Below are positions 1 to 48,514 of a stretch of 64,000 nt of DNA, in pieces. The notes below the pieces were generated by a model that did not search any database, was not told the DNA's origin, and saw only the letters and a list, made by a program, of their open reading frames with translations. This DNA is from Alentia gelatinosa (taxonomy: Eukaryota > Annelida > Polychaeta > Phyllodocida > Polynoidae). The translations under genes and the position numbers were made by a program. Position 1 is the stretch's first letter; each line of letters starts with the position of its first letter. The DNA is taken from NCBI GenBank assembly GCA_950022655.1, contig OX465579.1:14607088-14671087 (forward strand), read 5' to 3'.

Positions 1-1830
1 CCTATGGCTGCTTATAAAAATTTGTAGCTATTTTGGTGGGCATCATGTGGCGAGTGCGGATAAAATTAGATATTTTGTGTCCAACCTGTTTCATGAGCTG
101 GTGGAATTGCTTTTCAAAGTTTAGGGTTCAGTCAAGCTCAAAACCTATGTAGTTGTAAGAGCTAACTACATTAAGCTTATTTCGGCTTTTTCTTTGCATT
201 TACTGTTAAAAAATCACTTTTGCACGAGTCCATGGAATTATCTAAATCCTTTTGTTATACAGGCTGAATGACTGACGTATCAGCACGACTATAGTAGAGC
301 ACCAAATCGTCTGCGTACAGTAAAGATTTTGCTGATGTCAGAACTGTATTCATTGGTGAAATATACAAATAGAAGAGGGCCCAAGACTAAACCCTGTGGA
401 ACCCCATAGCAAAACGTTTTCCAGTTAGAACAATGTCTCAGAAAGTGTACACGTTGCTTATGTCCATCTAAGTAGGATCTAAGCCACAGAACATGAGAGT
501 CAGATAACACAAGTTGATCTATTTTTGTGATTAGCAAGCTATGATGCAGACTGTCAAATCTATGACCCCCCCCCCCCCCCAGTCACCAATCGGTTGTCCC
601 TTGCCAAATTTAAGTTGTTGACCAATGAATAAACTGCATCTGCTGTCCCCATGTTTCTTACAATACCCATACTACCCTTCTTCAGGTAATCTGATAGGTA
701 TGAATGGAACAGATTTTCTGCAATTTTGCCAGGAACAGGATGTAAACTATTTGGTCCCCAATTGTTTGAATCAGAAAGGTCTCCAGATTCAGGTATCATT
801 GTGATATTAGCCATTTCCCATGAGGTGGAGAAATGACTGAAGTCGAGGCAAGTTTGGTACAGATGTGTGAGTTGGTCTAAAATGAGAAGCATGCACTCTA
901 TAACCCATTCAAGCCGGGTGATGCCTTGAGGCATCAACCAGGGCTGGCCGGGTGATGTCCAAGGCATCATCCGGGGCTGGCCGGGTGATGCCTTGAGGCA
1001 TCATTTACAAAATGTTCGGTTTTTTAATATAATTGAAAATAATGGCTCAATAAGCATGAAACTTTCAGAGAATGTAGATATAACATCATTTTTTTAATAT
1101 TTCTGGGTGAAATGAAAAATAGTATCACGTGTCATTTCACGTGACCCAAAAATGAAATTTTACAATAGGCCTATGTACCCGGCCTCTAGCGGCATTCATT
1201 GGCACAAGTACCCGGCTCCATGACTAGCCCTGCCGCGGGTACCCGGCGCGATAGGGTTAAGTAATGATGTCCTGATATCTTTAATCCCCAAGGTTTTGCC
1301 TGTTGACAACTCATTTATCAAACCTAAAAGCTCACTTTTATCAATTATAAAATCTGGTGGCACAGGAGTCCGCAGAGTCTTAGCTCCTCCAGACTGGCAT
1401 CGACATTGAAGTTGCTTGCAGATGCAAGCACTTCCCCAACCTAAGAAAAATGAGTATTTAAGTATTCAGATTCAGTAACAGCAATATTATCAAGTGGCTC
1501 CAGGTCAGTCAGAGACGGTGAGTTGGCCTCAACACAAGGATAAGTAATTCTTGATTTTATGCCACAATTTCTTAGGTTTAAAAGCAATGGTCGGAAGAGT
1601 ATTATGAATATAATCAGCCTTGGCATGCTTAATGGCATTCCTAATTTGTCTTTTCAGTTTCCGTGCAGTATCCATATAATGCTTGCTGTTAGTATGAGGT
1701 TTAGCACTAAGCCTCGTTCTTTCAGGCCACTGGAAATGGTGTTTTGTAAAAGGGTATCTGTGGTTTCAGCTGGTTCACTTTGGCTCCCTATCGTGACCAC
1801 GAGTGTCACCTGTCTTTGAAAATCCTTTTT
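1..1830 (-). pseudogene. Decayed LINE ORF2 fragment (linker, RT fingers to thumb)
   Basis: Reading the minus strand from about 1830 down to 1 gives non-LTR retrotransposon pieces in the right order but in several frames. First comes the linker between endonuclease and RT (1440-1830). Then RT fingers near 700-850, with a relic of the ..NNW.P.SL.PVPGKI block. Then palm sequence with GVPQG.VLGP near 385-420 and a YADD catalytic motif near 305-319. Thumb-like sequence with LTVNAKK runs toward position 1, so the element continues off the window. Stops and frameshifts are frequent, so it is dead. It is interrupted at 904-1256 by a piggyBac-type MITE. The clade (CR1/L2/Jockey-like) is inferred from motif style only. 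Confidence 0.85.
904..1256. mobile_element. piggyBac-type MITE, copy 1
   Basis: A 353-bp noncoding insertion in the antisense LINE. It starts CCC and ends GGG, with TTAA on the right flank and ATAA on the left, so the expected TTAA duplication has one change. Subterminal sequence holds three copies of a GGGTGATG..GGCATCA palindrome-like motif. The same architecture and internal motifs recur at 32771-33086 with a perfect TTAA duplication. TTAA targets and CCC..GGG ends are hallmarks of piggyBac elements. No transposase is present. Confidence 0.75.
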
Positions 1831-1884
1831 AGGTTGGTCTCTGTCGACCATCCATGTTTTGTCTCCCCTGCTGTGATTGGGTGG

Positions 1885-2460
1885 CTGCAGCCACTCTATC
1901 AGAGCTGTGTTCTGATTGGATCTAGCCCCCTGCTACAGCCACTCTATCAGAGCTGTGTTCTGATTGGATCTAGTCCCCTGCTACAGCCACTCTATCAGAC
2001 CTGTGTTCTGATTGGATCTAGCCCCCTGCTACAGCCACTCTATCAGAGCTGTGTACTGATTGGATCTAGCTCCCTGCTACAGCCACTCTATCAGAGCTGT
2101 GTTCTGATTTGATCTAGCCCCCTGCTACAGCCACTCTATCAGAGCTGTGTTCTGATTGGATCTAGCTCCCTGCTACAGCCACTCTATCAGAGCTGTGTTC
2201 TGATTGGATCTAGCCCCCTGCTACAGCCACTCTATCAGAGCTGTGTTCTGATTGGATCTAGCTCCCTGCTACAGCCACTCTATCAGAGCTGTGTTCTGAT
2301 TGGATCTAGCCCCCTGCTACAGCCACTCTATCAGAGCTGTGTTCTGATTGGATCTAGCTCCCTGCTACAGCCACTCTATCAGAGCTGTGTTCTGATTGGA
2401 TCTAGCCCCCTGCTACAGCCACTCTATCAGAGCTGTGTTCTGATTGGATCCAGCTCCCTG
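1885..2460 (+). repeat. 48-bp minisatellite, 12 copies with 96-bp higher-order alternation
   Basis: Twelve head-to-tail copies of a 48-bp unit (CAGCCACTCTATCAGAGCTG.. through GGATCTAGCYCCCTG). From copy 3 onward the units alternate strictly between a GCCCCCTG end and a GCTCCCTG end, so the array has grown as 96-bp dimers. The overlapping open frame is a by-product of a period divisible by three. The array starts about 50 bp beyond the LINE relic. Confidence 0.97.
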
Positions 2461-2606
2461 CTCTCTCTGTCCACTGTGTGAGCGCCCTCAGTGCAATGCG
2501 CTCCTGTTGGACCCCACCTGTATGTGTCCTCACCCTGAAAAAGTCTCTTTCACAGACACTTGGAGGCGCACAAGGCAGCCTGACAAGGGTCTGTTGGAGT
2601 CTAGTG

Positions 2607-3100
2607 CCCTAGAGCTCACAATTCATAAATAAACCTCGGCAATCCAACCCAAACACAGGGTTGATTTTCAACATACCCACATTTAAAGAGGAGAGATACA
2701 AACCATCTCGACTCAGACCACACCGAACTGTAAATGCCGCAGCACCTCGCCTGATGAGACGACTTAGGATCGTCGAAACCACATATCCCATGTACCCTCT
2801 TTTTCTGTGTCAAAACTCACAAACACCCTTTTACAACAGGCCCCACATAGCCCATACACAGGGGGGTGGACACATACCAACCACCCTACACCCTCCCCTT
2901 CACAGCACACAGTGCACTGACAGGGGCAGCACACAGCTTGGGCCAATCACCCAACAGGATACGTTTGTGATTCACACAAGAACCAATAAAGAGAGAGGTT
3001 AGGGACCTAATTTAAATAAGCGGGAAAATCCGCTGCAAGTGGGTCCCTGAGGTCTATATGTGGTCGCGAGCTCGACATAAGCAAACGTCCAACATACTAC
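2607..3100. mobile_element. Candidate TPRT-type insertion with hammerhead-like core
   Basis: A 494-bp segment is bounded by identical 16-bp direct repeats, CTGTTGGAGTCTAGTG at 2591-2606 and 3101-3116. That is what a long target-site duplication from target-primed reverse transcription would look like. It contains the hammerhead-like core at 2751-2780, AATAAA strings near 2628 and 2986, and a small GCGGGAAAATCCGC hairpin near 3020. No long ORF is present. It could be a SINE-like or Penelope-related nonautonomous element. Alternatively the 16-bp repeat may be a relic of a local duplication. Confidence 0.5.
2751..2780 (+). ncRNA. Hammerhead-ribozyme-like core 1
   Basis: The sequence reads CTGATGA, a perfect 5-bp stem II (GACGA/TCGTC) closing a 7-nt loop, then GAAAC. 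These are the invariant CUGAUGA and GAAA strings of a hammerhead core in the correct order and spacing. I could not close stems I and III nearby, so a complete self-cleaving ribozyme is not shown. A second core on the minus strand at 29288-29315 keeps the invariant parts but has a different stem II. Confidence 0.5.
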
Positions 3101-3116
3101 CTGTTGGAGTCTAGTG

Positions 3117-4686
3117 GCTGAGGTAGACTCTAGTACAGTCCGTTGTCACCAGGGCCAGGACGCACAGGCTCTCATACTGGGACTGTTTTGCGCTGCCATT
3201 TTAAGGTGGGAATTCCTACCTTCTTCCCAACATGCACCTGGAAAATGGCGGATCGCTGGTTCTAACCTTGTGTGTACTGCGATCCAGTAACCAGCAATAT
3301 GATACAGTATCCCTCTTGTCAAACTGATCCTATAAATAGAACAGCCAACCCTACAATTCCTCTCACTACAGGTGTCTGGCCAGTCAGAGCCAAGCTCTGT
3401 TAGACCTTCACGTACCGTAACCCGGAGGCGGCGCGGTGCGTGAACGGACTAGTGGCTGAGGTAGGGAATTCCATACCCGGAAGCAGTATGGCGGCTGAAA
3501 TGATGTCTTGTTTATACACGTATGAAGTAGCTGTCAAAGCCACCAATATTTTTTCCTATTAAATTTCGAACATAATATGATAAAAGTCTTTTAAGTTTCC
3601 CTCTTCTCAACCCATTACATTGGTGTGATACCCAGATATAAGTTTAGCTCCCACAATCGGCAGATCTCATACTGAAAGACAGCTTGCACGTGTGGATTTG
3701 TTTGGTATTTCCTGGGTTTGAATCCGTGCTCTTTTTAGCATGCCCAACGAGAAAATTCAGATACCAGCCAATGAGCGCCCAGCCCTGGTAGATGCCTACG
3801 GACCCTCGTCAGTGTGCCCTGTGCGCCTCGAGCGGTCGTGAAAGAGACTAACCCTGGAACAGAGTCTAGACAGACGTGGCGGCCAATTCACCCCCAACAC
3901 AGTTTTCCCCAGCACAATAGCCGGATTGCTTCCAAGCCAAATGCATTCCAGTAGGTACTGATATAGCTTTCCAGATTCCTGTTGTTGGAACGGATTAGGG
4001 AATGTATACCATATCAGCCCAGACAATGGACCTATTTACTCGCTCGGAATGGACAGCAAATAGTCACGTGACCCTCCAGGGTTAGTAGGTCAGCTGAATC
4101 TGTATGAACTGGGAACTAATGGTATGTTCATCATTGATGAATGAGCGTGCAGCAATTAAAAGGCTTATAAAATGTTTAAGTCATTAACCAAGACGAAATC
4201 ATTGGCTAATTTGGCAAAAACACCATTGTGTGAATTCTTTTATTTTAGGAACATCAGGTCTACAAGATTAATAAACTGCATTTATGCTATTATGTACAAG
4301 CAATAGGTTAAAAAAGAAATATTGCTTATACGAGCCTGGTGTGTTGTGGCCATATCAAATTGTGTGAAACTGGTCTCAGTAAAAACAACCGTTATTAAAA
4401 GAAAAAAAGGCTGGGATTTGATTCAGTTATTAGGTCATAACCTAGTCGGCAACCAGCTACATCTATAAAAAAATTTTTTCAGACATTGCCAGAACTCTGG
4501 CCGACTGAAAAAATACCACAAATACATCTATAATTTCCTTTGGAGTGTCCAAATATGTCAAGCACAAGTAGGTCACTGAGTAAAGTCAGTCTGTAGTAGT
4601 TGGTCATGGTCAGCTGGTGACTCTTCTGAGATACTGGCCCACTGCACCATACCAATGTCACATGGGTAGGTTTTGCAGTACATAGA
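3117..4686. other. No gene recognised
   Basis: Unique-looking AT-rich sequence with no supported ORF. A CTAGTGGCTGAGGTAG string occurs at both 3112-3127 and about 3449-3464, hinting at a local duplication. The sequence near 4125-4160 (GATGAATGAGCGTGCA) recurs near 30750, so it belongs to a dispersed repeat. Confidence 0.6.
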
Positions 4687-11764: not shown

Positions 11765-12430
11765 ATGTACTTACTATCATGGTCACTTACTCTTTGGTCA
11801 TCAAATATGTGCTTTCTAAGTATTGCAAAATAGTTCACACCGAAATAGACGTCGGAAGAATTATCAATCGAAAGGTACTTATTGGATGTTGAGCAGAATA
11901 ATTTTCGTACTTGCGATTGGAATGATAAAAACGAGAGCCCAGGTAATGACATAGAATGGCATTCCCATGAGGCAATTATTACCTACTCGCTTTTTCTGAT
12001 TATCCCACGCTCATTCTCTTTCAAATGTGCCTCAGCAGAATCTAGAGCTCACCTCCCACCATGGAGATGTCCCATTACCTTAATTCCATATAAGGAATAC
12101 AGTAGACCGAGTAGCCAATGACTGCATTCGCAGCAAACCCGACCTTCACCCTGACCTCCTTACATAATATTTTCTAGCGCCTTGGGACGGCTCTGCAGTC
12201 GAGAGTTGACCTCGAATTTTAGGGGCCACAACTACCCTCCTATGGTGACTTAAGACTTCTGATAATCTGAGTTATCTAGTATGACTGATAGATCTTAATG
12301 ATAGGAATATATTACATAGGAATATAAAGGCGAGGCCTACAAATAGAGTCAGTCAGGGTGGTGGGGTGGAACGATTATGCCAGACTTAGTAACAGCTTAC
12401 TGACTGTTGTTATTGGTGTTATATAGAGTA
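10709..12430. other. No gene recognised; one TCTG microsatellite
   Basis: No supported gene. A (GTCT)n microsatellite occupies about 11727-11764. The remainder is unique-looking AT-rich sequence. Confidence 0.6.
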
Positions 12431-13020
12431 TGTCCTATCAATGTGTAGAATGCACCACTGACCCACAGGAGGGTTTAGCAATTATGCGTGTCCTATCAAT
12501 GTATAGAGTGCACCACTGACCCACAGGAGGGTTTAGCAATTATGCATGTCCTATCAATGTGTAGAGTGCACCACTTACCCACAGGAGGGTTTAGCAGTTA
12601 TGCATGTCCTATCAATGTGTAGAGTGCACCACAGACCCACAGGAGGGTTTAGCAGTTATGCATGTCCTATCAATGTGTAGAGTGCACCACAGACCCACAG
12701 GAGGGTTCAGCAGTTATGCATGTCCTTTCAATGTGTAGAGTGCACCACAGACCCACAGGAGGGTTCAGCAGTTATGCATGTCCTATCAATGTGTAGAGTG
12801 CACCACAGACCCACAGGAGGGTTTAGCAGTTATGCGTGTCCTATCAATGTGTAGAGTGCACCACTGACCCACAGGAGGTTTTAGCAGTTGTGCAGTGTCC
12901 TATCAATGTGTAGAATGCACCACTTACCCACAGGAGGGTTCAGCAGTTATGCATGTCCTATCAATGTGTAGAGTGCACCACTGACTCACAGGAGGGTTTC
13001 GCAATTGTGCAGTGTCCTAT
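12431..13020 (+). repeat. 58-bp minisatellite, about 10 copies
   Basis: Ten full copies plus a partial one of a 58-bp unit beginning TGTCCTATCAATGTGTAGAG and ending in GGGTTTAGCAGTTATGCA. Copy starts fall at 12431, 12489, 12547 and so on. Two late units are 59 bp (TGCAGTGTCC variant). Central copies share ACAGACCC while edge copies have ACTGACCC or ACTTACCC, a pattern of expansion from the middle. Confidence 0.96.
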
Positions 13021-13950
13021 GTGTTGCTTTGGGGAATAAATCACGGATGTGTCACATTGAAATAACCACTGGATGCAGGTTGATTTCCAGCAGTTACTGG
13101 AATACCATAGCTGAAGTGAGGTAGGTTGTAGAGTATTGCTTGGCAGTGTCATCCCTTCACAGATAAGATCTTCTGTAGAGGTACTTCTATGATTCTTTAT
13201 TGAGTCCACAAATGATATACTTCTCGTCCACTCAGGCCAAAGAACCTAGGGTGATGGTACAACTAGCTTATAAAGGAAACATCAAAGCTGAATACAATGG
13301 CAAGGTTGCTTCTCCCAAACACCATATATCCTTATTTTTAGCTCCCTGTGCTTGACCCTTGGCAGGGTGAAGGACACTCAATGCTCACACCCACTGTGAT
13401 GGGCCAGGTGCCCATATATGGCCAAGGACTCTCTCTGTCCTTGGGCCAAGTGGAGAGCTGTGATATACTTATACCTGTAGTTCTTATCAGCTCACAGATA
13501 TATTTGTAGTTTTTCTTTCTGAATTATGTTATTTGTGCATGGATCTGGTGCAATGCAGTGGCACCCCCTCCCCCCTGGAACTTTGGCTAAGCTTTGAAAA
13601 TGCCTCCTGTGGACATGTGCCTTTGTCGCTGATAAATTGCAATCCAATATTCTGATATCGGGACAGATAGATTAATGAACATTTTCCTTACCGGTTTTTT
13701 TTAAATAGCTTTATTGCGTTAGACACATACAGGTCGCTCTTCCAGCAACAGCAGATACAAATCAACAAAACAGAGATGAGTATATATACAGATGAGTTTT
13801 CATATACTTTCTCTCATAATAGCTAACTTGAATATATATCCCTTTACTATTCTACAATTGATAGTTTACTATATGATATCGAAGATTACACCAATCGATG
13901 TTTGTGATTGAATGTCGATATGTTACATATAAATTGCAAGGGCAAAACCA
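13021..13950. other. No gene recognised
   Basis: No supported gene. A T-run followed by AATAGCTTTATTGCG near 13692 resembles the reverse complement of a retroposon tail, but the body is not recognisable. Confidence 0.5.
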
Positions 13951-14213
13951 ACCTCAATAAAAGGTCGTATTGAGCATGGTAGCAACCTGAGCGGACGTGT
14001 ACACTCGCAGCTCCGGTGATTTCCAAATATTTTGACTTCCACACACGAGAGAATTACTGACCGACAGAGGACAATCTGGACATAGGGTAGGAGAACAACG
14101 AGGTTAAGTTGGGTTGATGCAAGATCAAGGTAAAAAGCAATTTAAGTATCTTTTCTCTGAGATCACTCACTATACATTGTTACTCCCCTGTTATCGTCCA
14201 TACCGGCAGTAAT

Positions 14214-15278
14214 ATGGAAAGCCAATTAGCCGAACAGGCGGTAAAGGATCTACAAATGCGTGCCAAACCAAAAATGCGGGCAGGTTCAACTACTGAAGAC
14301 AGTGAATTCACCTTATCGAGAATTTCCCTAACGTTAGATTATCTGGTTAAATCTGCAAAAAAGACCGAAGATAAACTGACTACACTAGATGATATTAAAC
14401 AATCGATCGAGTATAACCACGGTGAAGTTGATGACTTAAAAGCAGAAAACCAACAGCTCAAACATGACTTGAAAGCAGTAAACGAGAGACTGGATAAACT
14501 AGGACTCGGTATGAAAATAGCCAACACAAAAATCACCAACATACATGAGAAAACACTCACAAACGACCATAACACACGAAAACACAATTTGGTAATTGAA
14601 GGCGTCGATGTGATGGACAATGAAGAACCGCTTGCCATAGCCTACGATATACTTAGGTATATTAATAGTTCTCTCACACCCAATGACCTGGACACAGCGT
14701 ACCGTGTCGGGCCACCCGGCCGCAGTAACAGACCGCTTGTGGCCACATTCGTAAAGACATCGATGAGAGACCAACTCCTTAGAACAAAGAGTAAACTGAG
14801 AAAATACCCAGACATGTCTAAGGTCTACATCTCCGAGGATACTAATCCTGAGATAAAAGCGCAGAAGGCTGATGTTAGAGCAGTCGCCAGGTTGGCAGAC
14901 AAGATAGGAGAGGAAGCTAAGGCTAGAGGACGGGGTATTGTTTATCAGGGAAAGTATTACCGACACCACTCACTTCATAAATTACCCCCACACATCAGCT
15001 TGGAGTACACCAAGACAAGAACAACACCCACATTCGTAGCATACCACAGCCATCATGCCCCTCTAAGTAACATGTACCCTGCGAAAATAGTCAGAGATGG
15101 TTTAGAATTTTCCTCAGTCGAACAGGCGTACTGCTACCGCAAGGTGGAATTTGCGAATACACCCAGCCTGGCTCTCCAAGTCCTCAGCACCCCCGACCCA
15201 TACCAGTGCAAGCGTATCACCAAACCAATAGATACAAAGGAAGGCAGGCAGTTGCAGAAGAAGAGTTGCGTCGTTTGA
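14214..15278 (+). CDS. LINE ORF1: coiled coil + RNA-binding region + N-terminal half of NADAR
   Basis: Starts at ATG 14214, 354 codons. Residues about 60-105 are heptad-rich (DLKAENQQLKHDLKAVNERL), a likely coiled coil. Residues about 120-250 match the L1 ORF1p-type RRM and C-terminal RNA-binding layout (RKHNLVIEGV.., RPLVATFVK.., YISEDTNPE..). From about residue 272 the sequence switches to a NADAR domain: PLSNMYPAKI..DGLEF then SSVEQAYCYRK, and DPYQCKRITK. The frame ends in an irrelevant tail. The NADAR C-half continues in the -1 frame from about 15225, so this copy carries an indel unless frameshifting is programmed. NADAR enzymes remove ADP-ribose from guanine in nucleic acids. A role against host ADP-ribosylation is inference. 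Confidence 0.85.
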   Translation: MESQLAEQAVKDLQMRAKPKMRAGSTTEDSEFTLSRISLTLDYLVKSAKKTEDKLTTLDDIKQSIEYNHGEVDDLKAENQQLKHDLKAVNERLDKLGLGMKIANTKITNIHEKTLTNDHNTRKHNLVIEGVDVMDNEEPLAIAYDILRYINSSLTPNDLDTAYRVGPPGRSNRPLVATFVKTSMRDQLLRTKSKLRKYPDMSKVYISEDTNPEIKAQKADVRAVARLADKIGEEAKARGRGIVYQGKYYRHHSLHKLPPHISLEYTKTRTTPTFVAYHSHHAPLSNMYPAKIVRDGLEFSSVEQAYCYRKVEFANTPSLALQVLSTPDPYQCKRITKPIDTKEGRQLQKKSCVV

Positions 15279-15571
15279 ACCAACTTAAGTTCACCCAGAA
15301 TCCGCAGCTCAAACAAAAGTTGATGCAAACAGGTACACGCAAGATATATGAAGCAACCCTAGACAATCAGTGGGGTACAGGGTGTGGTTTAAATTTCCAA
15401 CTTCCACTAGGCACTTTCACAGGAAGCAACGCAGCAGGCGCCATCCTTATGGAACTAAGGACGGAATACGATATCGACAGCGAATTCCGAAGAGAGAAAC
15501 GCACCGACACCTGGAAAATCGCAGAAAATCGGGAAAAAGAGGACGAAAACGACAACAAGGAAGACAGCTAA
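15206..15571 (+). CDS. C-terminal half of the LINE NADAR domain, shifted frame
   Basis: Frame -1 relative to the preceding ORF, overlapping it by about 70 nt. The useful part starts near 15228 and carries the second half of the NADAR signature: KFTQNPQLKQKLMQTG, IYEATLDNQWGTG, then G.N..G.ILMELR. It ends with an acidic, lysine-rich tail (DENDNKEDS) at 15571. Together the halves cover the whole domain. The overlap has no canonical slippery heptamer in the right phase, so a simple indel is likelier than programmed frameshifting. A 209-nt gap with hairpin h1 separates it from the SGNH ORF. The listed start is only the first ATG in this frame, probably not a true start. Confidence 0.8.
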   Translation: MQAYHQTNRYKGRQAVAEEELRRLNQLKFTQNPQLKQKLMQTGTRKIYEATLDNQWGTGCGLNFQLPLGTFTGSNAAGAILMELRTEYDIDSEFRREKRTDTWKIAENREKEDENDNKEDS

Positions 15572-15702
15572 GTGAATCTCTAACCCACAAAGCCATAGAC
15601 TTACACACTATTAAGAAGCGGTACCAAAAAACGCATTAAATAAGATATCCATCGGTTTTTTTTCCATTAGAACACGCAGAACTAGAAGTCCAGATAAAAA
15701 AA

Positions 15703-15725
15703 GCAAGATTGTGATTACGACTTGC
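15703..15725 (+). promoter_or_regulatory. Constant-loop hairpin h1 (inter-ORF)
   Basis: Stem GCAAG/CTTGC closes the 13-nt loop ATTGTGATTACGA. The same loop sits on different stems in the 3' UTR of this LINE (20768, 20833, 20903, 21138 and a variant at 21030). It lies between the NADAR frame and the SGNH ORF, where a structured RNA could affect translation or be bound by an element protein (inference). Confidence 0.65.
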
Positions 15726-15780
15726 CTAATTTTATCTCTATCACTCATTTATACTATACGGAAACATTTTCTACTGCAAA

Positions 15781-16485
15781 ATGAGAGCATTAGTCTTAAG
15801 TGATTCACGTGGCTTTGGCATAAAAGGGCACATGCTGACTGAAATGTCAAACCATTTTGTGGTAAAAGCATACTCAGGATTGGGATACACTGAAATATCT
15901 GATAAAGCGCTAGGCTATGTCATAAACTTAAACCCCGATATCGTAATCATGTACGCAGGAATATGCGATATCACATACAAGAACTCGTTAACAAAAGATG
16001 TTTTTCTCGGAAATAATGATATACAAGATCTCGTGGCTGGGGTGATGTGGAAAATCTCGAATTCATTTAACAAGATATGGAGGGAATCTGCTAAAAGAAA
16101 GCTGTTTCTACCCGTTATAGGGCTAGATATACAAAAATTCAACGCAAAGCATAAGCGACCTCTACTAAGTACTCCACAAGAAAGCACCAGTAGGAGCAAC
16201 CATGACGAACAACCCGCACAACTACAACCACATCCAGATCAAGAAAAACTCAATGATGCGATCATCCGACTAAACACTGATATAACGAAATTCAATTATG
16301 ATAACTCATTACCAACACCTTGGACAGCTACCCCATTTCACAGAAGTAAGGGCAGGGGCCGGATAACCCATAGATATGATTATTTGTACGATGGATGCCA
16401 TTTGGCACCCGACGATTCACAGAAACTGCTCAAAACAATCGATACCTGCTTACACTTGAAAAGATGGGAGATACTCAATCTGTGA
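15781..16485 (+). CDS. SGNH/GDSL hydrolase-like ORF of the LINE
   Basis: 234 codons from ATG 15781. Block I is VLSDSRG (Ser9 as nucleophile candidate). A central YAGICDIT (residues 58-65) sits where SGNH enzymes have the Gly/Asn blocks, though the usual Asn is not obvious. The C-terminal YDGCHLAPDD supplies the Asp-x-x-His pair (D204, H207). The catalytic Ser/Asp/His set is therefore present. Esterase domains of this family occur in ORF1 of CR1-type LINEs and some other retroelements, with a proposed lipid or membrane-linked role. Here it is a separate ORF between the NADAR ORF and the endonuclease/RT ORF. The frame is intact. Residues 125-150 are a low-complexity Q/S/H linker. Confidence 0.8.
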   Translation: MRALVLSDSRGFGIKGHMLTEMSNHFVVKAYSGLGYTEISDKALGYVINLNPDIVIMYAGICDITYKNSLTKDVFLGNNDIQDLVAGVMWKISNSFNKIWRESAKRKLFLPVIGLDIQKFNAKHKRPLLSTPQESTSRSNHDEQPAQLQPHPDQEKLNDAIIRLNTDITKFNYDNSLPTPWTATPFHRSKGRGRITHRYDYLYDGCHLAPDDSQKLLKTIDTCLHLKRWEILNL

Positions 16486-16734
16486 ATACCACAGCAAAAC
16501 CAGGTTTTTCTGACCTAAAACACTTAAATATTATCTTAGTATGTAAAAAATATTCTACTTTACTCTAACAAGCACTGGAGCTGTATAGTGTGACAGTGCC
16601 AACATTCGTATAGTAATGACTACCGATATACATGTAACTTTCATTACAGTCATATTCATCCTCAAATCAAATTCATGCTCAATAGTCGAAGTACACTTGG
16701 TCCTGGAGAATAGTGATAATTCTAATGTAAATCA

Positions 16735-17139
16735 ATGGCGATGTTAAGAGATGTTAAACAAGAAAAAGGATTAAAATTTTTAAGTGTGAACGTCTGGAGT
16801 ATAATTCCAAATTTAGAGAACCTTACAAACTTACTAATAAATTTTGATGTAGTTGCAATATCAGAAACATGGCTAGATCCAAGACAACCGAATGCTACTG
16901 TATCAATAGAGGGATACCAACTGGTACGATTGGACAGGAAGCCACATGTGAATAAGAAAGGGGGGGGTCTAATTATATACATAAAAGATCGCATATTGTA
17001 TGATAAAATCGAAGAACATTGTATTATCACTCCGTTATATGAACTGTGTACAGTAGAAATTTTAGTTGGCAAAACAAAATATATTGTGGTTAATGCGTTA
17101 CAACACCAACCCAAATGTACGAAAAACTTACGGAAATAG
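16735..17139 (+). pseudogene. LINE ORF3, N-terminal part of apurinic-type endonuclease
   Basis: Starts at ATG 16735, 250 nt after the SGNH ORF. It encodes the beginning of an exonuclease III-type endonuclease: FLSVNV (Asn19) and VVAISETWLDP (catalytic-type Glu44), followed by GGGLIIYIKD. This nuclease nicks target DNA for target-primed reverse transcription. The frame breaks near 17115-17139, and the domain continues in another frame at 17115-17513. The first ATG is plausible as the real start because conserved endonuclease sequence begins within 20 residues. Confidence 0.8.
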
Positions 17140-17350
17140 TTAATAGTTACCCACAAAACAGACCAATAGTGATTATGGGGGATCTCAACGTAGATATCCT
17201 AGACAAGAAGAACAAAAAATCATTTATGGATCGATTTTGTAAATCAAATTCTCTGATGCAACTGATCAACTCCCCAACGAGGTATACAGAAACCTCCTGT
17301 ACCTTAATTGACCACATATATGGTCTATTCTCCCAGATCGTGATCGATGG
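17115..17350 (+). pseudogene. LINE endonuclease, middle part, frameshifted
   Basis: Continues the endonuclease in a new frame with PIVIMGDLNVD (conserved GDxN block) and SCTLIDHIYG. The useful homology stops at about 17350, where a 1.07-kb element is inserted. Codons from there to 17513 are read from the insertion. The final SDH-type block reappears after the insertion near 18503 as DHLPVYL. Confidence 0.78.
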
Positions 17351-18416
17351 CCCACGTACGGTGACCTATAATTCAAAGGGTTGTTTTCATATCTATAAAA
17401 CATTTTATTATATCAGAAATGATATTAGTGTCTGTAGAAATGACAGATCTGCCATGGGAACCCCACTTTCATGTACCTATATCGATAAAAAAATTGATAA
17501 ACCCCTAAAATAGGCATTTTTTAGCTCAAATTCATAGGTGAAACCTATATAACCAGATTTTGAAGACCTCTTATAAATTTGTAACTATATATGTTTATCT
17601 ATTCTGAATGTGGGATACCCACAAATGTGTTGCAGAACATATAAATTATAATAAATGTAGAGATGGGGAAATCTATATATAGTCTAGGTGTAAAAAATCA
17701 GTGGTGTAGGGTATGTCACCGTACATGGGCAAGCCACTTTAAAAGGTACAAAAATTATAGAAAAGTACTTTTTTGGGTACTTTTTAATCCTTCAAGTAAA
17801 AGAGGTATGTGTACAGGTTTCATAAGATCTGGAGTGTATAAAGTAATCCTTCCATCAAATATACCACAGCTAAATGAACATGGGTGGTGAACTTTATTTG
17901 GTCACCGTACATGGGCAGAACTTATAAGGTTTTGCTTATGTAAGGAAGAAGATTTACAATATTATTGAATAATATTTTATACATAAATAGAGTATAATGG
18001 AACCATTAACATCTGCAATTTGCAAGGACTTCAGGCATGTTAATGCCAAGAAATATACATGTATTTTTAGGTATGTCACCGTATATGGGCCCGTCACCGT
18101 ACGTGGGCATTATATTCTGAATAGTAATAATCAACTCTGATTTATTCAATATAATTAGAGTTTCATTTTCTGAAAATGAAAATCTGATTTTGCTTATAAA
18201 TAACAATCAATATTTCCCCTAAGGCCTTGTGAACCCCACTTTCCCACGTACGGTGACATAGGACTTATAAGGTTAAATTCATTCAGCTAAAAAAATAATT
18301 TCCAATAAAGATTAGTGTTCCCAACTTTTACACATGCCTAATATTGTCTTCTACTGTATATTTCCACATTTTTATAAAGATCTAACTAGTTTGAATTTTT
18401 GGTCACCGTACGTGGG
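17351..18416. mobile_element. DNA element inserted in the LINE, with repeated GTCACCGTACGTGGGC motif
   Basis: About 1,066 bp with inverted ends CCCACGTACGGTGACC (17351) and GGTCACCGTACGTGGG (18401). The same 16-bp motif occurs internally at 17715, 17901, 18075, 18093 and, inverted, 18243. That makes seven copies in all, a subterminal-repeat pattern typical of transposase binding sites. No transposase is encoded. Oddly, the inverted symmetry extends about 45 bp beyond the right end (18417-18461), where an inverted copy of the LINE sequence left of the element (17306-17350) appears. Confidence 0.75.
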
Positions 18417-18499
18417 CATCGATCACAATCTGGGAGAATTGACCATATACGAATGTCAAAAATATTTCAAAATATGGCGTACTCAATTACATAATCAAG

Positions 18500-19498
18500 G
18501 ACCATCTCCCTGTCTATCTCATAATAAAAGCCAAACGTAATAAAATAGTGAAGGAGGAGATAAAAGCTAGGACATACAAAAACTTTAATAGACAACAATT
18601 TATTGATACTCTCCTGAACTCAAACTGGGAAAAATTCACGCTAGACCAACATCCTGATACTCTATGAGCTCAAATGTTAAAATATATTACATCTGCACTG
18701 AACGCCTCATCACCGATCGTAACCTTTTACGCTAGTAAACATAAACCTGATTGGCTTAATAAAGATATTCTTAACTCTATTAAAAATCGTGACTATTATT
18801 ATAGAAAAGCGCACCGCACCCAAAACCTAGACGATTGGCGAATTGCCAAATATCACCGGAATCGGACACAAGCAATGATTCGTGCAAGCAAACAAAGTTT
18901 GATAGACAAACTTATAGTGAACAATAATGGTGATACTAAAGCATTTTGGAGAGGAATACGAAAAATTCTTCCTAAAGAGGTTGCACCACCTGTAGGGGAA
19001 ATGATTAATGAAGATACTAATCAAGCAGTTGAGAAAAACAAAAGAGCTGACCACATTAACCAATACTTTGCCACCATAGGAAATAAGCTAGCTAATAAAC
19101 TACCAAAAATTAATATACCTACCCCACCCTTTGACAATAGACCCAATGAGATCGATACTGACATACTTGAAGACAACATCACTATTGATGAGATAGTTAA
19201 TGCTATAAAAGATACTAATTTCAATAAATCATCATCCATACCGAATATTAAATCATACATCCTTAAAATAGCATTTCTGGCTACCCTTGACAAACTACAG
19301 ATAATCTTTAACTCCTCTATACGACAAAATATCTTCCCATCAGAATGGAAACGAACGAAACTAACCCCAATCCCAAAAAAAGGTAACCTAAAACTTTTAA
19401 GTAATTTTCGGCCCATCAGCTTATTGCCTCTCCCCAGCAAAATATTTGAAAAAATAATAAACAAGAGACTAAAAGATTATCTAGAGGGGAAGAACTAG
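18500..19498 (+). pseudogene. LINE ORF3: endonuclease end, linker and RT N-terminus
   Basis: Resumes with the endonuclease DHLPVYL block, crosses a TGA at 18665, then is open from ATG 18674 to the TAG at 19496 (274 codons). Contents: a linker with KPDWLNKDILNSIKNRDYYYRKA, then the RT fingers with LTPIPKKG and NFRPISLLPLPSKIFEKIIN. It ends at an in-frame stop just before the AQHGFR..HST block, so the break is a point nonsense change. The parent protein was a CR1/Jockey-type APE-RT. Confidence 0.85.
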
Positions 19499-20706
19499 TT
19501 ATCCACAGCCCAACATGGTTTTAGAGCTAAACATTCAACAACCTCAGCAATAAATAGTTACTTAACACAAATATATACATCTATTAACGAAAATAAAGAA
19601 CCTATAACAGCATACCTAGATTTTAAGAAACCTTCGATACCGTCTCCCATCCACTACTAATCCATAAACTCCACCAACTAGGCCTATCGAATAATAGTTG
19701 CTTATGGTTTAAAGACTACTTATATAATAGGACCCAGCAAACAACAGTAGATAACATAACATCGGAACAACAATACATAACCTGTGGAATACCGCAGGGA
19801 TCAGTATTAGGTCCGACTCTTTTCCTCACGTATATTAATAGTCTAACTGCATACTTAAAGAATTATCCATGTAACATAACTCTATACGCTGACGATACCA
19901 CGATAACAACATCTAATACTGAGGATATGCGTATAGTACTACCAATTGCTTACAAATGGTGTACAGAAAACTTATTAACTATTAATGAAAATAAGACAAA
20001 ATTGATGTATTTTAATCATATTGGGGGAAACGCTAATGAGTTGAGGGAAAATACGATAAAACTTAATAACATACCGTTGGAATTGGTGAAAACCTACAAC
20101 TATCTGGGTCTTACGATGGATAATAAACTAAGATTTAATGAGCATAGACAAAATACAATGAGAAGGGTTTCTGACAAAATTTATTTACTTAACAAGATTA
20201 GAAATTTAATCAGTACACAAACAGCCCTTAAAATATACACAAGTAAAATATTACCCTACCTTGATTACTGCGACTATATATACGATCCACAGACCGCCCA
20301 AGGGGCCTATGAACTGCAGCTACTTCAAAACAGGGCATTGAGATCGATTTATAAAATAAAATTAGGGCCGAACCAATTATACACAACCATAGAACTACAT
20401 AACAAAGCCTCTATTAAATACCTGAATGAAAGAAGAAAACTACATCTATTACACTACTCACACTCATTGACTCAAATTCCCAAATTGATAGATAAAAGAG
20501 ATATTCCGACTAGGAGACATGAAGGCCTCATGTTACTACTGCCCCAAACTAGGAGCCCCCTTTTCGAGAAATCGTTTTATCTGAGAGGCATCAAGCAATG
20601 GAATACACTAAAACCAGGTCATGCAAAAATAATGGATATAAAAACATTCAAAATCAACACTAAATTTAGCTTCCCTAATTGTATATATCAAATAAACTAT
20701 GAGTAG
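19499..20706 (+). pseudogene. LINE ORF3: RT palm, thumb and C-terminal domain
   Basis: Begins with QHGFRAKHSTTSAI in the upstream frame. A one-base loss near 19632 shifts the frame inside the FxKAFDTV-type block. The palm continues with CGIPQGSVLGP and the YADD catalytic motif at 19885-19896. From 19927 to 20706 the frame stays open through the thumb (LLTINENKTKLMYF, YNYLGLTMD) and the C-terminal domain, ending ..KFSFPNCIYQINYE. Polymerisation residues are present but the copy cannot make a full protein. Confidence 0.88.
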
Positions 20707-20767
20707 AAAGAGTACAAACATATTTGCTAGAATATAATAACATTTCAATAATGAACAGAAAATACCA

Positions 20768-20792
20768 CTCCTGATTGTGGTTACGACAGGAG
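20768..20792 (+). promoter_or_regulatory. Constant-loop hairpin h2
   Basis: Stem CTCCTG/CAGGAG (6 bp) with loop ATTGTGGTTACGA. The stem is unrelated in sequence to h1 but fully paired. Confidence 0.65.
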
Positions 20793-20832
20793 CCCAGACA
20801 TTTAAAAAACAAATAACCAACCATTACCAATG

Positions 20833-20857
20833 ACTCAGATTGTGATTACGACTGAGT
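20833..20857 (+). promoter_or_regulatory. Constant-loop hairpin h3
   Basis: Stem ACTCAG/CTGAGT (6 bp) with loop ATTGTGATTACGA, identical to the h1 loop. Confidence 0.65.
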
Positions 20858-20902
20858 TGACTAGATATTGTATATTTTTCCTTACTACCTAACTGCCCAA
20901 TA

Positions 20903-20929
20903 AGCTCAGATTGTGACTACGACTGTGCT
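20903..20929 (+). promoter_or_regulatory. Constant-loop hairpin h4
   Basis: Stem AGCTCAG/CTGTGCT (one T-T mismatch) with loop ATTGTGACTACGA. Repeated exactly at 21138-21164. Confidence 0.6.
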
Positions 20930-21028
20930 AACCTTGGGTATTACTGTCACTTATTCTTCTCTAATTGTATCAATGTTATAAACATGTAGTATCCTATTCA
21001 TGATAATTAAATTGTTCGTTCACATCAC

Positions 21029-21055
21029 AACTCAGACTGTGTCTCGTACTGAGTT
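21029..21055 (+). promoter_or_regulatory. Constant-loop hairpin h5, variant loop
   Basis: Stem AACTCAG/CTGAGTT (7 bp) with a diverged 13-nt loop ACTGTGTCTCGTA. A partial tandem copy of its right half follows. Confidence 0.55.
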
Positions 21056-21137
21056 AACTGGATATTGTGTCTCGTACTGAGTTGACTAGATATCATATTG
21101 TATCGTATACATCTCTTCCCTATCAAATTGCCTAATA

Positions 21138-21164
21138 AGCTCAGATTGTGACTACGACTGTGCT
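21138..21164 (+). promoter_or_regulatory. Constant-loop hairpin h6
   Basis: Second copy of h4: AGCTCAG, loop ATTGTGACTACGA, CTGTGCT, inside a 233-bp-spaced duplication. Confidence 0.6.
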
Positions 21165-21742
21165 AAACTTGGGTATTCTCTCCACACATTTTCCCACTGT
21201 ATCAATGTTGTCAAAATATAATATCCAATGCGTGAAAATAAGTGAGGTTGACATTAAACGAAATATGCCAACTACAAATCATATATGCTAAGGACCCTGC
21301 TCCTGATTTGAATCATCATATGTACTACAAAAATACTGATGTAGATATAGATAACAGATAATAGTGCATAACATGTGTTATGTAATCATATATGCTCTGA
21401 AGACTTTACCTACCTGTTATTTGATTGTATTACTGTTGTACTGTATTTCTTCGTATAAGTCTCGACATGCCATACACAATGTTATTTTGTTCTCGGGGAC
21501 TGCTACTATTATTGTACCTACGACTAAATTTATCAATAACCATCTCATCTCATTATTCCATCCCTTCACTGTGAAATCGGGTTGTCTGATATTTGATGTA
21601 TCGGCTTATCAAAGCTCCACTGGAACTACTATGTACTGAATAGTCCCCGATTGAGAGGGCCTGGACGGAAGAACGGCAGAATTGCCGAGTTCAGTGTTTG
21701 TATGATACAATACCCTAATAAAAATTGATAAAAAAAAAAAAT

Positions 21743-22825
21743 AACACAAACTACCAGTAGGTAATTCCCTTTTCAGTGACATAATCAAAAATTCCAGTTT
21801 CTTATTTTTTATACTGAGCTTTTGTCGCTTCCTTTTGAACCGCAGAGTCTAGTGAGTTCCAGAATTTAATGCCAGTGACAACAAAATTTAAGAAATACCC
21901 ACCCTCCCCCCTGTGGTGCCAACCAATATTGGCCCCTAATTAGTCGCTGGGTGAGGAGAAATGGCCCTGCCACACACAGACTGAGACCCGCTCAGCCCCA
22001 CTCACTGATCCTGCCCCCGGAAACCGACGTGTTCCTTTATCAGTGGCCTCAGATCGCTCAGAATATCGTAAGTCAGTCGTCCAGTGTAGACAGAATTAAC
22101 TCACGATTAACTCCCACTAATGACCACCACCCCCACCCAGAGATCCTGATGTGATGGTCAACGCCCTGCACAAATTTGCCTGAGATACCATAAAACTAGC
22201 TTGCGATTAAGGGAGCTAATCGGTGGGAACAAAATCGTACAGTGTGTTTGCCACTTTCGATATTTAGAGGGAGAAGAAATACATGCTTCGTGACATTATT
22301 TAGTCGCGTGACTTAGTCTAGTGTCCACTAAAGGTCCAGACCCACGTCGCATACATTTTATTGCCCATCGGTGGCCTACGGACCATATTTTATTGCACCA
22401 ACTGCTATGGATTCATGGCACTCAATCGCAAATAAAATCCAAGGTATGCCCCATCGGTGCGATGGATCGATCGCAATGCTTGTGGCACCATCTATGTATA
22501 GGCCTAGGTGCACAACTTTATTTCTAATATCATTAGATATACATACTTGATTATGATTATATTAGCTCTCACCCCTCACACTTTTCCAGGCATCAGAATT
22601 ACACCTAGGCTACAGCCACAGCCTGCCTTTTTCAGTTTTCACACCCTTGTTGATGCTGTCAGATGTGGTAGTCATTGACTGTAGTAGGCCCCAGGTGCCA
22701 ATATTAAGGGTAACAGTATACATGTAGTTAAGTATACCTCTGAGGACTTTTCTTAGTTAAATACAATAAGAACTACTCGATACATGTGCGTTAAATCCGT
22801 CACAGATCATGAACATTTCTAGATT
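21743..22825. other. No gene recognised
   Basis: Sequence downstream of the LINE, with moderately C-rich stretches at 21900-22150. No supported ORF or RNA. CGTCGCATAC and CCATCGGTGG-like words around 22340-22460 loosely resemble sequence at 23090-23230, perhaps an eroded inverted-repeat element. Confidence 0.5.
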
Positions 22826-44309: not shown

Positions 44310-44690
44310 GAAATGGGTCGAGTTCTCCAATCGAATTTTCCAAAACGGGTCGAGGTCTCCTGACAACTACAAGTCGAGTTCTTTTCGGGTCGAGTTCTCC
44401 GGACAACTAAAGGTCGAGTTCGTTTCGAGTCGAGTTCTCTAGACATCTTCCAGTCGAGTTCTTTTCGGGTCGAGTTCTCCGGACATCTTCAAGTCGAGTT
44501 CGTTCCGGATCGAGTTCTCCGGACAACTAAAGGTCGAGTTCGTTTCGGGTCGAGTTCTCTAGACATCTAAAGGTCGAGTTCGTTTCGGGTCGAGTTCTCC
44601 GGACATCTTCAAGTCGAGTTCGTTTCGGGTCGGGTTCTCCAGACATCTACAGGTCGAGTTCGTTTCGGGTCGAGTTCCTCAGTAACCATG
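44310..44690 (+). repeat. 40-bp minisatellite with internal half-repeat
   Basis: About 9 units of 40 bp. Each carries GTCGAGTTCTCCGGACATCT followed by AAGTCGAGTTCGTTTCGG. GTCGAGTTC appears twice per unit at 24 and 16 bp spacing, so it arose from an asymmetric dimer. Confidence 0.92.
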
Positions 44691-45775: not shown

Positions 45776-47728
45776 AGGGGAGGGTGGGTGGGAGGAAGGA
45801 AGGAAGGTAGTTAAGGAGGGAGAGATTGAGGGATGGGTGGAGGGAAGAGGGGAGGGAGGGTGGGAGGAAGGGATGGATGGAAGGAGGGAGGGATGGAAGA
45901 ATGGATGGAGGGAGGGATGGAGGGGGATGGGAGGGATGGATGGAGGGAAGGAGGGTGGGAGGGGTGGATGGAGGGATGGAGGGAGGGTGAGAGGGAGGGT
46001 GAGAGGGAGGGAGGGGGATGGGAAGGAAAGAGGGAGGGAGGGTGGGTAGGAGGGTGAGAGGGATGGATAGATGGAAGGAGGGATGGATAGATGGATGGAT
46101 GGAGGGAGGGAGGGGTGGATGGGAGGGAGGGAGGGATGGAAGGAGAGAGGGAGGGTTGGAGGGATGGATGGATGGAGGAATGGGCGGAAGGAGGGTGGGA
46201 GGGAGGGTGGGAGGGATGGATGGAGGGATGGGGGGAGGGAGGGTGGGAGGGAGGGGGGATGGGAGGGAGGGTGGGAGGGATGGATGGAGGGATGGAGGGA
46301 GGGAGGGAAGGAGGGTGGAGGGGGGAAGGAGGGTTGAAGGGAGGGAAGGAGGGGGGTGGATGGGAGGGAGGGAGGAATGGAAGGAGGGAGGGAGGGAGGG
46401 AGAGCAGGAGGGAGGGAGGGAGGGTCGGAGGGAGGGAGAGAGGGGGGGGGGGTGGGAGGGAGAGATAGAGATAGAGGGAGGGAGTGAGGGAGGGAGGCAG
46501 GGTGTGAGTGAGGGAGGGTGGGAAGGTGGATGGGAGGGAGAGATAGAGGGAGGGAGTGAGGGAGGGTGGGAGGGTGTGAGTGAGGGAGGGTGGGAGGGTG
46601 GATGGGAGGGAGAGATACAGGGAGGGAGTGAGGGAGGGTGGTAGGGTGTGAGTGAGGGAGGGTGGGAGGGTGGATGGGAGGGAGAGATACAGGGAGGGAG
46701 TGAGGGAGGGTGGGAGGGTGTGAGTGAGGGAGGGTGGGAGGGTGGATGGGAGGGAGAGATAGAGGGAGTGAGTGAGGGAGGGTGGGAGGGTGTGAGTGAG
46801 TGAGTGAGGGAGGGTGGGAGGGTGGATGGGAGGGAGAGATAGAGGGAGGGAGTGAGGGAGGCAGGCAGGGTGTGAGGGAGGGAGGGAGGGAGGCAGGGTG
46901 TGAGGGAGAGATAGAGGGAGGGAGTGAGGGAGGCAGGCAGGGTGTGAGGGAGGGAGGGAGGGAGGCAGGGTGTGAGGGAGGGATACAGGGAGGGAGGGAG
47001 GGAGGCAGGGTGGATGGGAGGGAGAGATAGAGTGAGGGAGTGAGGGAGGGTGGGAGGGTGTGAGTGAGGGAGGGTGGGAGGGTGGATGGGAGGGAGAGAT
47101 ACAGGGAGGGAGTGAGGGAGGGTGGGAGGGTGTGAGTGAGGGAGGGTGGGAGGGTGGATGGGAGGGAGAGATAGAGGGAGGGAGTGAGGGAGGGTGGGAG
47201 GGTGTGAGTGAGGGAGGGTGGGAGGGTGGATGGGAGGGAGAGATAGAGGGAGGGAGTGAGGGAGGCAGGCAGGGTGTGAGGGAGGGAGGGAGGGAGGCAG
47301 GGTGTGAGGGAGGGATACAGGGAGGGAGGGAGGGAGGCAGGGTGGATGGGAGGGAGAGATAGAGTGAGGGAGTGAGGGAGGGTGGGAGGGTGTGAGTGAG
47401 GGAGGGTGGGAGGGTGGATGGGAGGGAGAGATAGAGGGAGGGAGTGAGGGAGGGTGGGAGGGTGTGAGTGAGGGAGGGTGGGAGGGTGGATGGGAGGGAG
47501 AGATAGAGGGAGGGAGTGAGGGAGGCAGGCAGGGTGTGAGGGAGGGAGGGAGGGAGGCAGGGTGTGAGGGAGGGATACAGGGAGGGAGGGAGGGAGGCAG
47601 GGTGGATGGGAGGGAGAGATAGAGTGAGGGAGTGAGGGAGGGTGGGAGGGTGTGAGTGAGGGAGGGTGGGAGGGTGGATGGGAGGGAGAGATAGAGGGAG
47701 GGAGTGAGGGAGGCAGGCAGGGTGTGAG
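45776..47728 (+). repeat. G-rich minisatellite array with 72-bp and 260-bp periods
   Basis: About 1.95 kb of GGGA/GGTGG-type sequence, almost no C on the plus strand. From about 46500 a 72-bp unit is clear (GATGGGAGGGAGAGATA starts at 46529, 46601, 46673, 46745). Later a 260-bp unit containing a 72-bp subunit appears (AGAGTGAGGGAGTG blocks 260 and 332 bp apart). The minus strand reads as long proline/serine frames, an artefact of stop-free simple sequence. Strong purine asymmetry suits triplex or G-quadruplex formation. Confidence 0.95.
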
Positions 47729-48514
47729 TGCGTGCGCTGTGCACGTCCCTCAGCCGCCCTCACCTGGAGGATCGCATTGTCCCGTGGCACGCGCCTTGCA
47801 CGGCGGCCGACCGTTGACCGAGCACGTGAATAATTCATGGGAAGCGTCTTCTACCTCCCTCTGTTCAGGAGTGCTGACTCGGCAGAATGACATACTCGCA
47901 TAATGCCCCTCTCTGTCTGTGCGCCGCGGATCGCCCTGAATCCCATCCTCCTGCTCTTCCCGATAGACATGTGTCAGCGATTTGACGCGTTATTCTTATG
48001 AATCCAGACAGTCTGCCTGGTATGTTGGCAAGGCAGCTGTCTCTCTCTGGCAGTCTAGATACCATAGATTTGTATTTGTTACCTCCCCGGGTGAATTGTT
48101 ATCCCTTTTTTCACTGCTGACTACGATTTATATCATCGCTAACGTCTATAGCTCTCGTTTCCGGCACCATCAGTCAAATTCAGCATTTGATCCACTCGGT
48201 ATATATACATTAGAAATGGTCCCTGAAAATGTTGTTTATATATAGAATAACCTGTCAATGCTTCACAGCTACATTTCAAATAGATACCTCATATGTAAAA
48301 GGTGGTAATTTGCTGTGAACCAATGTAGATGTATAAAGTTAGCAAGAAATGACATTTAAACATTTCTCAAGCTAATAAGTAGTAAGACAAATTAGATGGA
48401 ATAGAAATGGCGTGAATAGATACAAAATATCTATTTTAGGGTCAATTCCTGTGCTTAAGTGGGGATAATGCAGGTTTTGAAAAATAGACTCATCTGTGGT
48501 GATATCAGATTACC

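Follow-up and report, generated by a model that had tools for sequence, protein, structure and literature searches.

The first open reading frame (ORF1) of a long interspersed nuclear element (LINE) of the annelid Alentia gelatinosa (Polynoidae) encodes a NADAR domain, which is a trait of the whole family and is under purifying selection as strong as that on the rest of the conserved part of ORF1. The copy in question lies in a stretch of 64,000 nucleotides (contig OX465579.1 of assembly GCA_950022655.1, positions 14,607,088 to 14,671,087 of the forward strand), here called the window, in which ORF1 spans 14214-15571; all features of the element are on the forward strand. It is a copy of an abundant three-ORF family, in which ORF1 is followed by an SGNH/GDSL esterase-like ORF2 and by an ORF3 encoding an endonuclease (EN) and a reverse transcriptase (RT) of non-L1 type. 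With ORF1 frameshifted and an insertion within the endonuclease, this copy is dead at more than one point, and no role of its own is ascribed to it.

The NADAR domain, its conservation and its active site

A preliminary description of ORF1 had proposed a NADAR domain split by a single frameshift, and profile searches confirm it. ORF1 has an ATG start and a TAA stop, with its frame broken once, at 15236-15245. In hmmscan, the first frame (14214-15275) matches positions 7-79 of the PF08719 profile (E 4.2e-4, 21 bits, below the Pfam cut-off of 35.1) and the second frame (15071-15568) matches positions 86-161 (E 1e-11, 45.8 bits, above it), with six profile positions absent at the break. The N-terminal half (15045-15236) includes the motifs PLSNMY (15060-15077) and SSVEQAYCYRK (15111-15143); KFTQNP (15287-15304), YEATLDNQWGTG (15347-15382) and ILMELR (15443-15460) lie in the C-terminal half (15245-15466). 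An unbroken relative, L047, has the NADAR in a single frame (E 1e-19, 71.8 bits against the cut-off of 35.1). When 12 LINE NADARs and the host NADAR, as first row, were combined into one profile (A3), it matched two NADARs of solved structure, 8bau (E 8.8e-26) and YbiA (2b3w, E 3e-24). In the protein database, the window ORF1 query had 1504 candidates without a match at E<=1e-3, and a query with one LINE NADAR had 12 without a match at E<=1e-4; the mixed profile A3 found 6381 proteins, of which the best 120 were listed, full-length LINE ORF1s being outside the length range of the search.

The host genome (1.23 Gb, 101 contigs) contains 116 matches to the window ORF1 protein (115 of 2931 candidates were scored), and 106 of these, the window's own included, extend to query residue 335 or beyond, which is into the first half of the NADAR. 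Twenty relatives were fetched, chosen for a matched part without a stop, and all 20 encode the coiled-coil region, the presumed RNA-binding region and the NADAR in one frame. A search of the genome with the NADAR profile gave 3136 candidates; all 150 of those scored, which do not include the broken NADAR of the window, are above the Pfam cut-off, many of them in frames that stay open for 500-800 aa. Two or more of the 150 lie outside LINEs: L001, a stand-alone host NADAR near animal NADARs, and L045. The latter has a 1040-aa open frame (224-3343) with matches to LRAT (E 1.2e-6) and NADAR (E 3.9e-30). The 9.5 kb searched contain no RT match, and in the tree the NADAR of L045 is placed on the same side as those of LINEs.

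Selection was estimated from Nei-Gojobori counts for the 190 pairs of relatives in a codon alignment of all 20, with pairs considered usable at dS 0.05-1.5. The ratio of nonsynonymous to synonymous substitution (dN/dS) in the NADAR is 0.034, 0.040, 0.058 and 0.095 in the four usable pairs, compared with 0.046-0.076 in four pairs for the presumed RNA-binding region and 0.089-0.57 in 12 pairs for the coiled coil. In the other LINE groups, three NADAR pairs are in range (0.037, 0.037 and 0.507). A neutral simulation in which stops were forbidden gave a median of 0.77 and a minimum of 0.46 in 200 runs, therefore the low ratios are not explained by the choice of open frames. The preliminary description had left two points to the relatives, whether intact copies encode the RNA-binding region together with the NADAR in one frame and whether the domain is under purifying selection; both are answered in the affirmative, the former in copies picked for their open frames.

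The residues that surround ADP-ribose in a solved NADAR are E43, K50, K75, W89, E125, D130 and W133, of which E43 and E125 hold the distal ribose (PMC11543638). With the numbering shifted by two, the residues named there agree with 8bau in letter and number at 11 out of 11 positions checked. Across 50 LINE rows (45 distinct, L045 excluded), E43, K50 and W89 are conserved in all 50, K75 in 48, and E125, D130 and W133 in 49 each; the rows were taken as LINE by likeness, with an RT in range checked for L031-L044 and, in the window group (the window copy and its relatives), for L066-L068. The window itself has the E43, K50 and K75 equivalents in its N-terminal half, the active-site E and K being within SSVEQAYCYRK, and the E, D and W of YEATLDNQWGTG are equivalent to E125, D130 and W133, so that Glu is at the E125 position; its W89 equivalent coincides with the frameshift. 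In the Escherichia coli C7 NADAR the K50 equivalent is essential and the E125 equivalent, there an Asp, is needed (PMC11543638).

Three contacts of 8bau, Y84, D86 and R93, which are on the adenosine side and include one phosphate contact, are unconserved in the LINE rows, and the Y84 position is a gap in 44 of the 50. The chemistry end of the site is thus retained, and the adenosine end is altered. At the E125 position, Glu is typical of the YbiA family, Asp of the BC4488 and DarT1-linked NADARs, and His of phages (PMC11543638). The LINE NADARs, with Glu in 49 of the 50 rows where DarT1-linked NADARs have Asp, are therefore of YbiA type and not of the DarT1-linked type, although the DarTG1 NADARs and the Phytophthora NADAR 8bau share the domain family and the ADP-ribose site with them (PMC11543638).

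Upstream of the NADAR are an N-terminal coiled-coil-like region (14214-14570) and a presumed RNA-binding region, RRM-CTD-like (RNA recognition motif and C-terminal domain; 14571-15030). The former aligns in the relatives, and in the window it has weak coiled-coil-type Pfam matches, all below cut-off. For the latter, the region of the window group matches the ORF1 of three other NADAR-carrying LINE groups in hhalign: the L1/Tx1-type group of the same genome (probability 99.5, E 1.7e-22) and two other non-L1 groups (E 2.5e-20 and 7.7e-12). The L1-type RNA-binding region of the preliminary description thus stands as homology to an L1/Tx1-type ORF1, although it has no convincing Pfam match and no PDB sequence match, and the coiled coil proposed with it is weakly matched.

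The esterase-like ORF and probable exchange of ORF1 between LINE types

The preliminary description had mentioned neither the SGNH-like ORF, nor the non-L1 RT, nor the repeated hairpins. The second ORF (15781-16485, 234 aa) has the motifs SDSRG (15799), the G of SGLG (15868-15885), AGICD (15955) and YDGCH (16387). On its own it has no Pfam match, and it aligns with relatives that do; among 18 aligned rows, the window included, six match Lipase_GDSL_2 and three match Lipase_GDSL at E<=0.01. Compared with PDB sequences, the profile of these rows matches two designed proteins best (E 7.6e-7 and 3.8e-6), then 4c1b (E 3.1e-4), an ORF1-encoded protein that is presumably the ZfL2-1 esterase, and then GDSL-like proteins. 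Within the window group, the Ser of block I, the Gly of block II and the DxxH of block V are kept in four of four rows. The Asn of block III is Cys in all four, against Asn in 13 of the 14 other rows, therefore activity of the window's version is doubtful. At 15955-15969 the window reads GICD in this block, and Cys is also found in L011.

Of 14 loci that have an RT nearby (L031-L044, chosen for their strong NADAR matches), 12 have the SGNH ORF after NADAR and before the RT, all on one strand: these are all 10 non-L1 loci and two of the four L1-type loci. None of the esterase-containing ORF1 proteins (ORF1p) of RepBase has an RRM, and it has been suggested that mutual exclusion of the two may hold (PMC3905857). 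The presence in one element of an esterase-like ORF beside a putatively RNA-binding ORF1 speaks against such exclusion. CR1/L2 LINEs of the ZfL2-1 type have an SGNH-type esterase like that of the window, there within ORF1 and here as a separate ORF beside an RNA-binding-type ORF1 (PMC3905857). A separate GDSL esterase ORF3 is common to several types of retroelement in bdelloids, LTR (long terminal repeat) and Penelope-like elements, as the separate ORF is here; these differ in not being LINEs, and the word NADAR has no occurrence in the accessible text of PMC5408684, where they are described.

Two very different kinds of RT follow these ORF1s. The EN-RT of L033 matches human L1 ORF2p (E 2e-110); that of L034 matches R2 (1.5e-10), with no L1 match at E<=0.1. 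The RT piece of the window has no L1 ORF2p match at E<=1. In the RT tree, L033, L036 and L044 are split by a 100/100 branch from 14 YADD-type RTs, among them that of the window. A Tx1 or other L1-superfamily identity of the window element is ruled out by the position of its YADD-type RT on the far side of this branch; its EN and RT are assigned as non-L1 by tree side and to no finer clade.

The distances within the two ORFs differ in order. For the RT, the mean tree distance from the window group is 2.57 and 2.58 to the other non-L1 groups and 8.49 to the L1-type, the last value being saturated, so that only the order counts. For ORF1, it is 3.06 and 3.07 to the other non-L1 groups and 2.41 to the L1-type. 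These means come from 12 RT rows and 12 ORF1 rows, with most copies contributing to both; L068 was excluded, since its RT pieces could derive from a different element. If both ORFs had descended vertically, such an order would not result, which argues for exchange of ORF1, or of EN-RT. The distances thus point to exchange of ORF1, usually together with the SGNH ORF, between L1/Tx1-type and non-L1 LINEs. Neither direction is favoured by the ORF1 tree: rooted with a cellular outgroup (three B rows, L016, L022 and L025, excluded), the ORF1 tree has the non-L1 ORF1s as a clade with a support of only 67/30, and grouping the window group with the L1-type ORF1s is not rejected (approximately unbiased test, p-AU 0.436). 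ORF1 types have likewise been exchanged between LINE lineages in the Jockey superfamily, there between CR1 and L2, which is within one superfamily, and here probably between L1/Tx1-type and non-L1; NADAR is unmentioned in the main text of that report as far as accessible (PMC4120745).

With regard to the origin of the domain, the LINE NADARs, with L045 still counted among their rows, are on one side of a branch from 17 cellular NADARs, and in the same tree they are separate from the host gene L001 with a support of 100. With 122 cellular rows (the 120 best database matches, 8bau and the host gene), a single origin of the LINE NADARs is not rejected (p-AU 0.898), in a setting where the free tree is without a single origin and long branches are in play. 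Near-identical loci (L004, L005, L009, L019, L020, L023, L024 and L030) were excluded from both trees, as were six of the 20 window-group relatives from the tree with 17 cellular rows and L048 from that with 122.

A repeated hairpin and the state of the window copy

The sequence AGATTGTGATTACGACT has five matches within three mismatches in the window, against 0.16 expected. It forms the loop and closing pairs of a hairpin whose arms vary in concert. In the window, copy 1 (15700-15728) is in the spacer from ORF1 to the SGNH ORF, and copies 2 to 5 (20766-20794, 20831-20859, 20902-20930 and 21137-21165) are in the 3′ untranslated region (3′UTR); the 3′UTRs of L066 and L067 also contain several copies. 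In a set of 25 copies (22 distinct), which was partly selected by the arms, 91.7 % of cells pair, compared with 63.7 % in shuffles, and the covariation score is 0.713 against 0.187, with none of 500 shuffles as high. One of the five measures, pairs with change on both sides, was matched by 46 of the 500 shuffles. The covariation is lost when the partners are slid.

A pattern of the loop only, written after the 25-copy set had been seen, finds 34 sites in 31 distinct places, three of which are represented in two loci; at every site between 3 and 5 of the 5 arm positions pair. It occurs just downstream of ORF1 in 15 of the 20 relatives, in which 120-303 bases past the stop were examined. The loop reads GATTGTGAYTACGAC or near, and the hairpin is also present in L046-L057, L059, L062, L064, L066 and L067. 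Searched against 39 sources, a covariance model gives 37 matches at E<=1, every one in the window group and none in L031-L045. No prior description of the hairpin was found in Rfam, the only source searched, where no family matches across 13500-22000 of the window at E<=1. On this pattern, the hairpins are best read as probable RNA binding sites for a protein of the element, either ORF1p or RT.

Downstream of the SGNH ORF, the first part of an apurinic endonuclease domain, itself with a broken frame (16726-17320), matches Exo_endo_phos (E 7.1e-6 and 9.5e-4). It is interrupted by an insertion (17321-18436) with no counterpart in L066 and with inverted ends of about 60 bp (17317-17377 and 18390-18449, 91.8 % identity). 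This insertion of about 1.1 kb contains several CACCGTACGTGGGC-like repeats and looks like a foldback-type DNA element. The remaining EN and the YADD-type RT follow in pieces (18437-20706; RVT_1 E 8.3e-25, with a match in L066). The 3′UTR (20707-21741) finishes with a terminal AATAAA and poly(A), and its end at 21741 is matched in L066, L067 and L068. Elsewhere in the window there are a G/A-rich (GGGA)n array of 1.9 kb (45778-47722; GC skew 0.82 across 46001-48000) and tandem arrays at 1884-2462 (48 bp x 12), 12430-13020 (58 bp x 10) and 44346-44677 (40 bp x 8).

Possible role of the NADAR in the retrotransposon

LINE ORF1p coats the RNA of its element, as is established for L1. If this holds for the present family, the NADAR would act in cis inside that particle, where, tethered, it would meet the element RNA, first-strand cDNA and the nicked target DNA. 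As a glycosyl hydrolase, it could there remove ADP-ribose, or a related N-glycosidic adduct, from guanine, and this removal would keep host ADP-ribosylation from blocking reverse transcription. That LINE NADARs may take ADP-ribose off the nucleic acid of the element is suggested by analogy with four E. coli NADAR types, YbiA included, all of which remove ADP-ribose from guanine, and not from thymine, in vitro (PMC11125620). The preliminary description had likewise suggested a counter to host ADP-ribosylation, as inference; the retained active-site residues and the action of NADARs on guanine-ADP-ribose (PMC11543638, PMC11125620) are in its favour, and the lack of a DarT match in the genome is not. 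An antitoxin role linked to DarT is rejected on that lack of a match.

Animal proteins that modify guanine in this way do exist, and one of them, CARP-1, comes from a clam. CARP-1 (PMC11543638) and pierisin-1 of the cabbage butterfly (PMC11125620) are both guanine-ADP-ribosylating. Taken as a whole, an account in which a NADAR selected across the family erases guanine-ADP-ribose in cis from element nucleic acid, with the hairpins as binding sites and ORF1 exchanged between LINEs, is the best explanation available, and the chances that it holds are about even. A wider proposal, which is rather doubtful, is that an ADP-ribose-erasing ORF1, mostly with the SGNH ORF, forms a cassette that LINE superfamilies have exchanged as a counter-defence. 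In this view it owes its existence to an undescribed anti-transposon defence of animals, in which the host would label the nucleic acid of retroelements with ADP-ribose on guanine; the window group would act on RNAs tagged by the repeated cis hairpin.

Several observations weigh against the erasure account. DarT (PF14487) has no match in the host genome, DarT being the only guanine transferase looked for. YbiA and phage NADARs, active in vitro, failed to rescue cells from DarT1 (PMC11125620), therefore activity in vitro need not be physiological. YbiA-type NADARs also act on riboflavin intermediates (PMC11543638, PMC9303266), and the NADARs tested were inactive on uracil-ADP-ribose (PMC13036486). 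Changing the E43 equivalent to Gln inactivates the enzyme, and changing it to Ala has a minor effect in vitro (PMC11543638). Since Y84, D86 and R93 are unconserved, the substrate may differ. The RRM fold is unsupported by sequence, the presumed RNA-binding region being without a convincing Pfam or PDB sequence match. In the selection estimates, the between-group pair L002-L021 has the dN/dS of 0.507, at a near-saturated dS of 1.41, and the pairs are all among relatives, with the window's copy in none.

The changed or missing adenine side of the 8bau site in the LINE rows would also fit a different substrate near the particle, such as small NAD or ADP-ribose derivatives or signals, NAD-capped or 2′-phosphate RNA intermediates, or riboflavin-type glycosides. 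Among the known activities of YbiA-type NADARs is the clearance of riboflavin intermediates, NADARs have been tied to RNA repair (PMC9503650), and YbiA gave no rescue from DarT1 in cells (PMC11125620). SNA-3, a NADAR protein, is essential for nematode trans-splicing, which suffers when residues homologous to those in the active site of YbiA are mutated; misfolding is a caveat raised in the same paper (PMC9303266). A substrate in nucleic acid, on the other hand, is favoured by the fusion of the domain to a presumed RNA-binding ORF1, and four out of four NADAR types tested act on guanine-ADP-ribose in vitro (PMC11125620); hydrolysis of another substrate is held to be unlikely.

The NADAR may otherwise have been kept as a binding module, either an ADP-ribose reader or an RNA or protein contact, and not as an enzyme. 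Purifying selection by itself is no proof of catalysis, and the first of the three NADARs of SNA-3 is without residues needed for YbiA activity (PMC9303266). This is quite unlikely, given that the E43, K50 and E125 equivalents are kept in 50, 50 and 49 of the 50 rows, across groups with ORF1 distances of 2.4-3.1 substitutions per site. That a host NADAR gene was inserted by chance into one LINE copy, a case which the preliminary description had raised, is scarcely credible: nothing was found in its favour, the 106 family matches out of 116 that reach the NADAR rule it out, the domain is selected across the family, NADAR also precedes RTs in other LINE groups, and the LINE NADARs are apart from L001.

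The preliminary description knew of no LINE with this layout. NADAR in the ORF1 of LINEs is, however, already known, since it was reported in 2025 for several Tx1 LINEs of Crassostrea gigas, with processing of an RNA intermediate as the suggested role (PMC12477816). As in the window, these have a YbiA-family NADAR in ORF1. They differ in being Tx1 (L1 superfamily), whereas the window RT is non-L1, and the accessible text on them reports neither an SGNH ORF nor a selection test, an exchange or a hairpin. The same paper describes Gypsy elements of Ectocarpus with NADAR at the N-terminus of Pol, retroelements with a conserved NADAR as here, but LTR elements of an alga with the domain in Pol. RNA viruses of animals carry NADAR in their polyproteins (PMC9503650); in these viruses of invertebrates the domain likewise goes with the replication protein of an RNA-based parasite, there with an RNA-dependent RNA polymerase and here in a retrotransposon ORF1. 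The non-L1 carriers, the pairing with SGNH, the exchange across superfamilies and the evidence from selection and active site are, as far as found, unpublished, in a literature scope that left most subscription journals and the Repbase reports outside.

The known erasers of guanine ADP-ribose are NADARs. The retention of a NADAR active site by a selfish element through long divergence speaks for recurrent ADP-ribosylation of guanine, or a close relative of it, on the nucleic acid of retroelements, and the occurrence of the same module on LINEs of two very different kinds is a hint that the host has an unrecognised defence, which the NADAR may undo. The LINE NADARs offer many natural versions for testing. 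Exchange of ORF1 across L1/Tx1-type and non-L1 LINEs, to which the distances point, would widen the ORF1 shuffling known so far, and the hairpin provides a concrete handle on how a LINE may recognise its own RNA.

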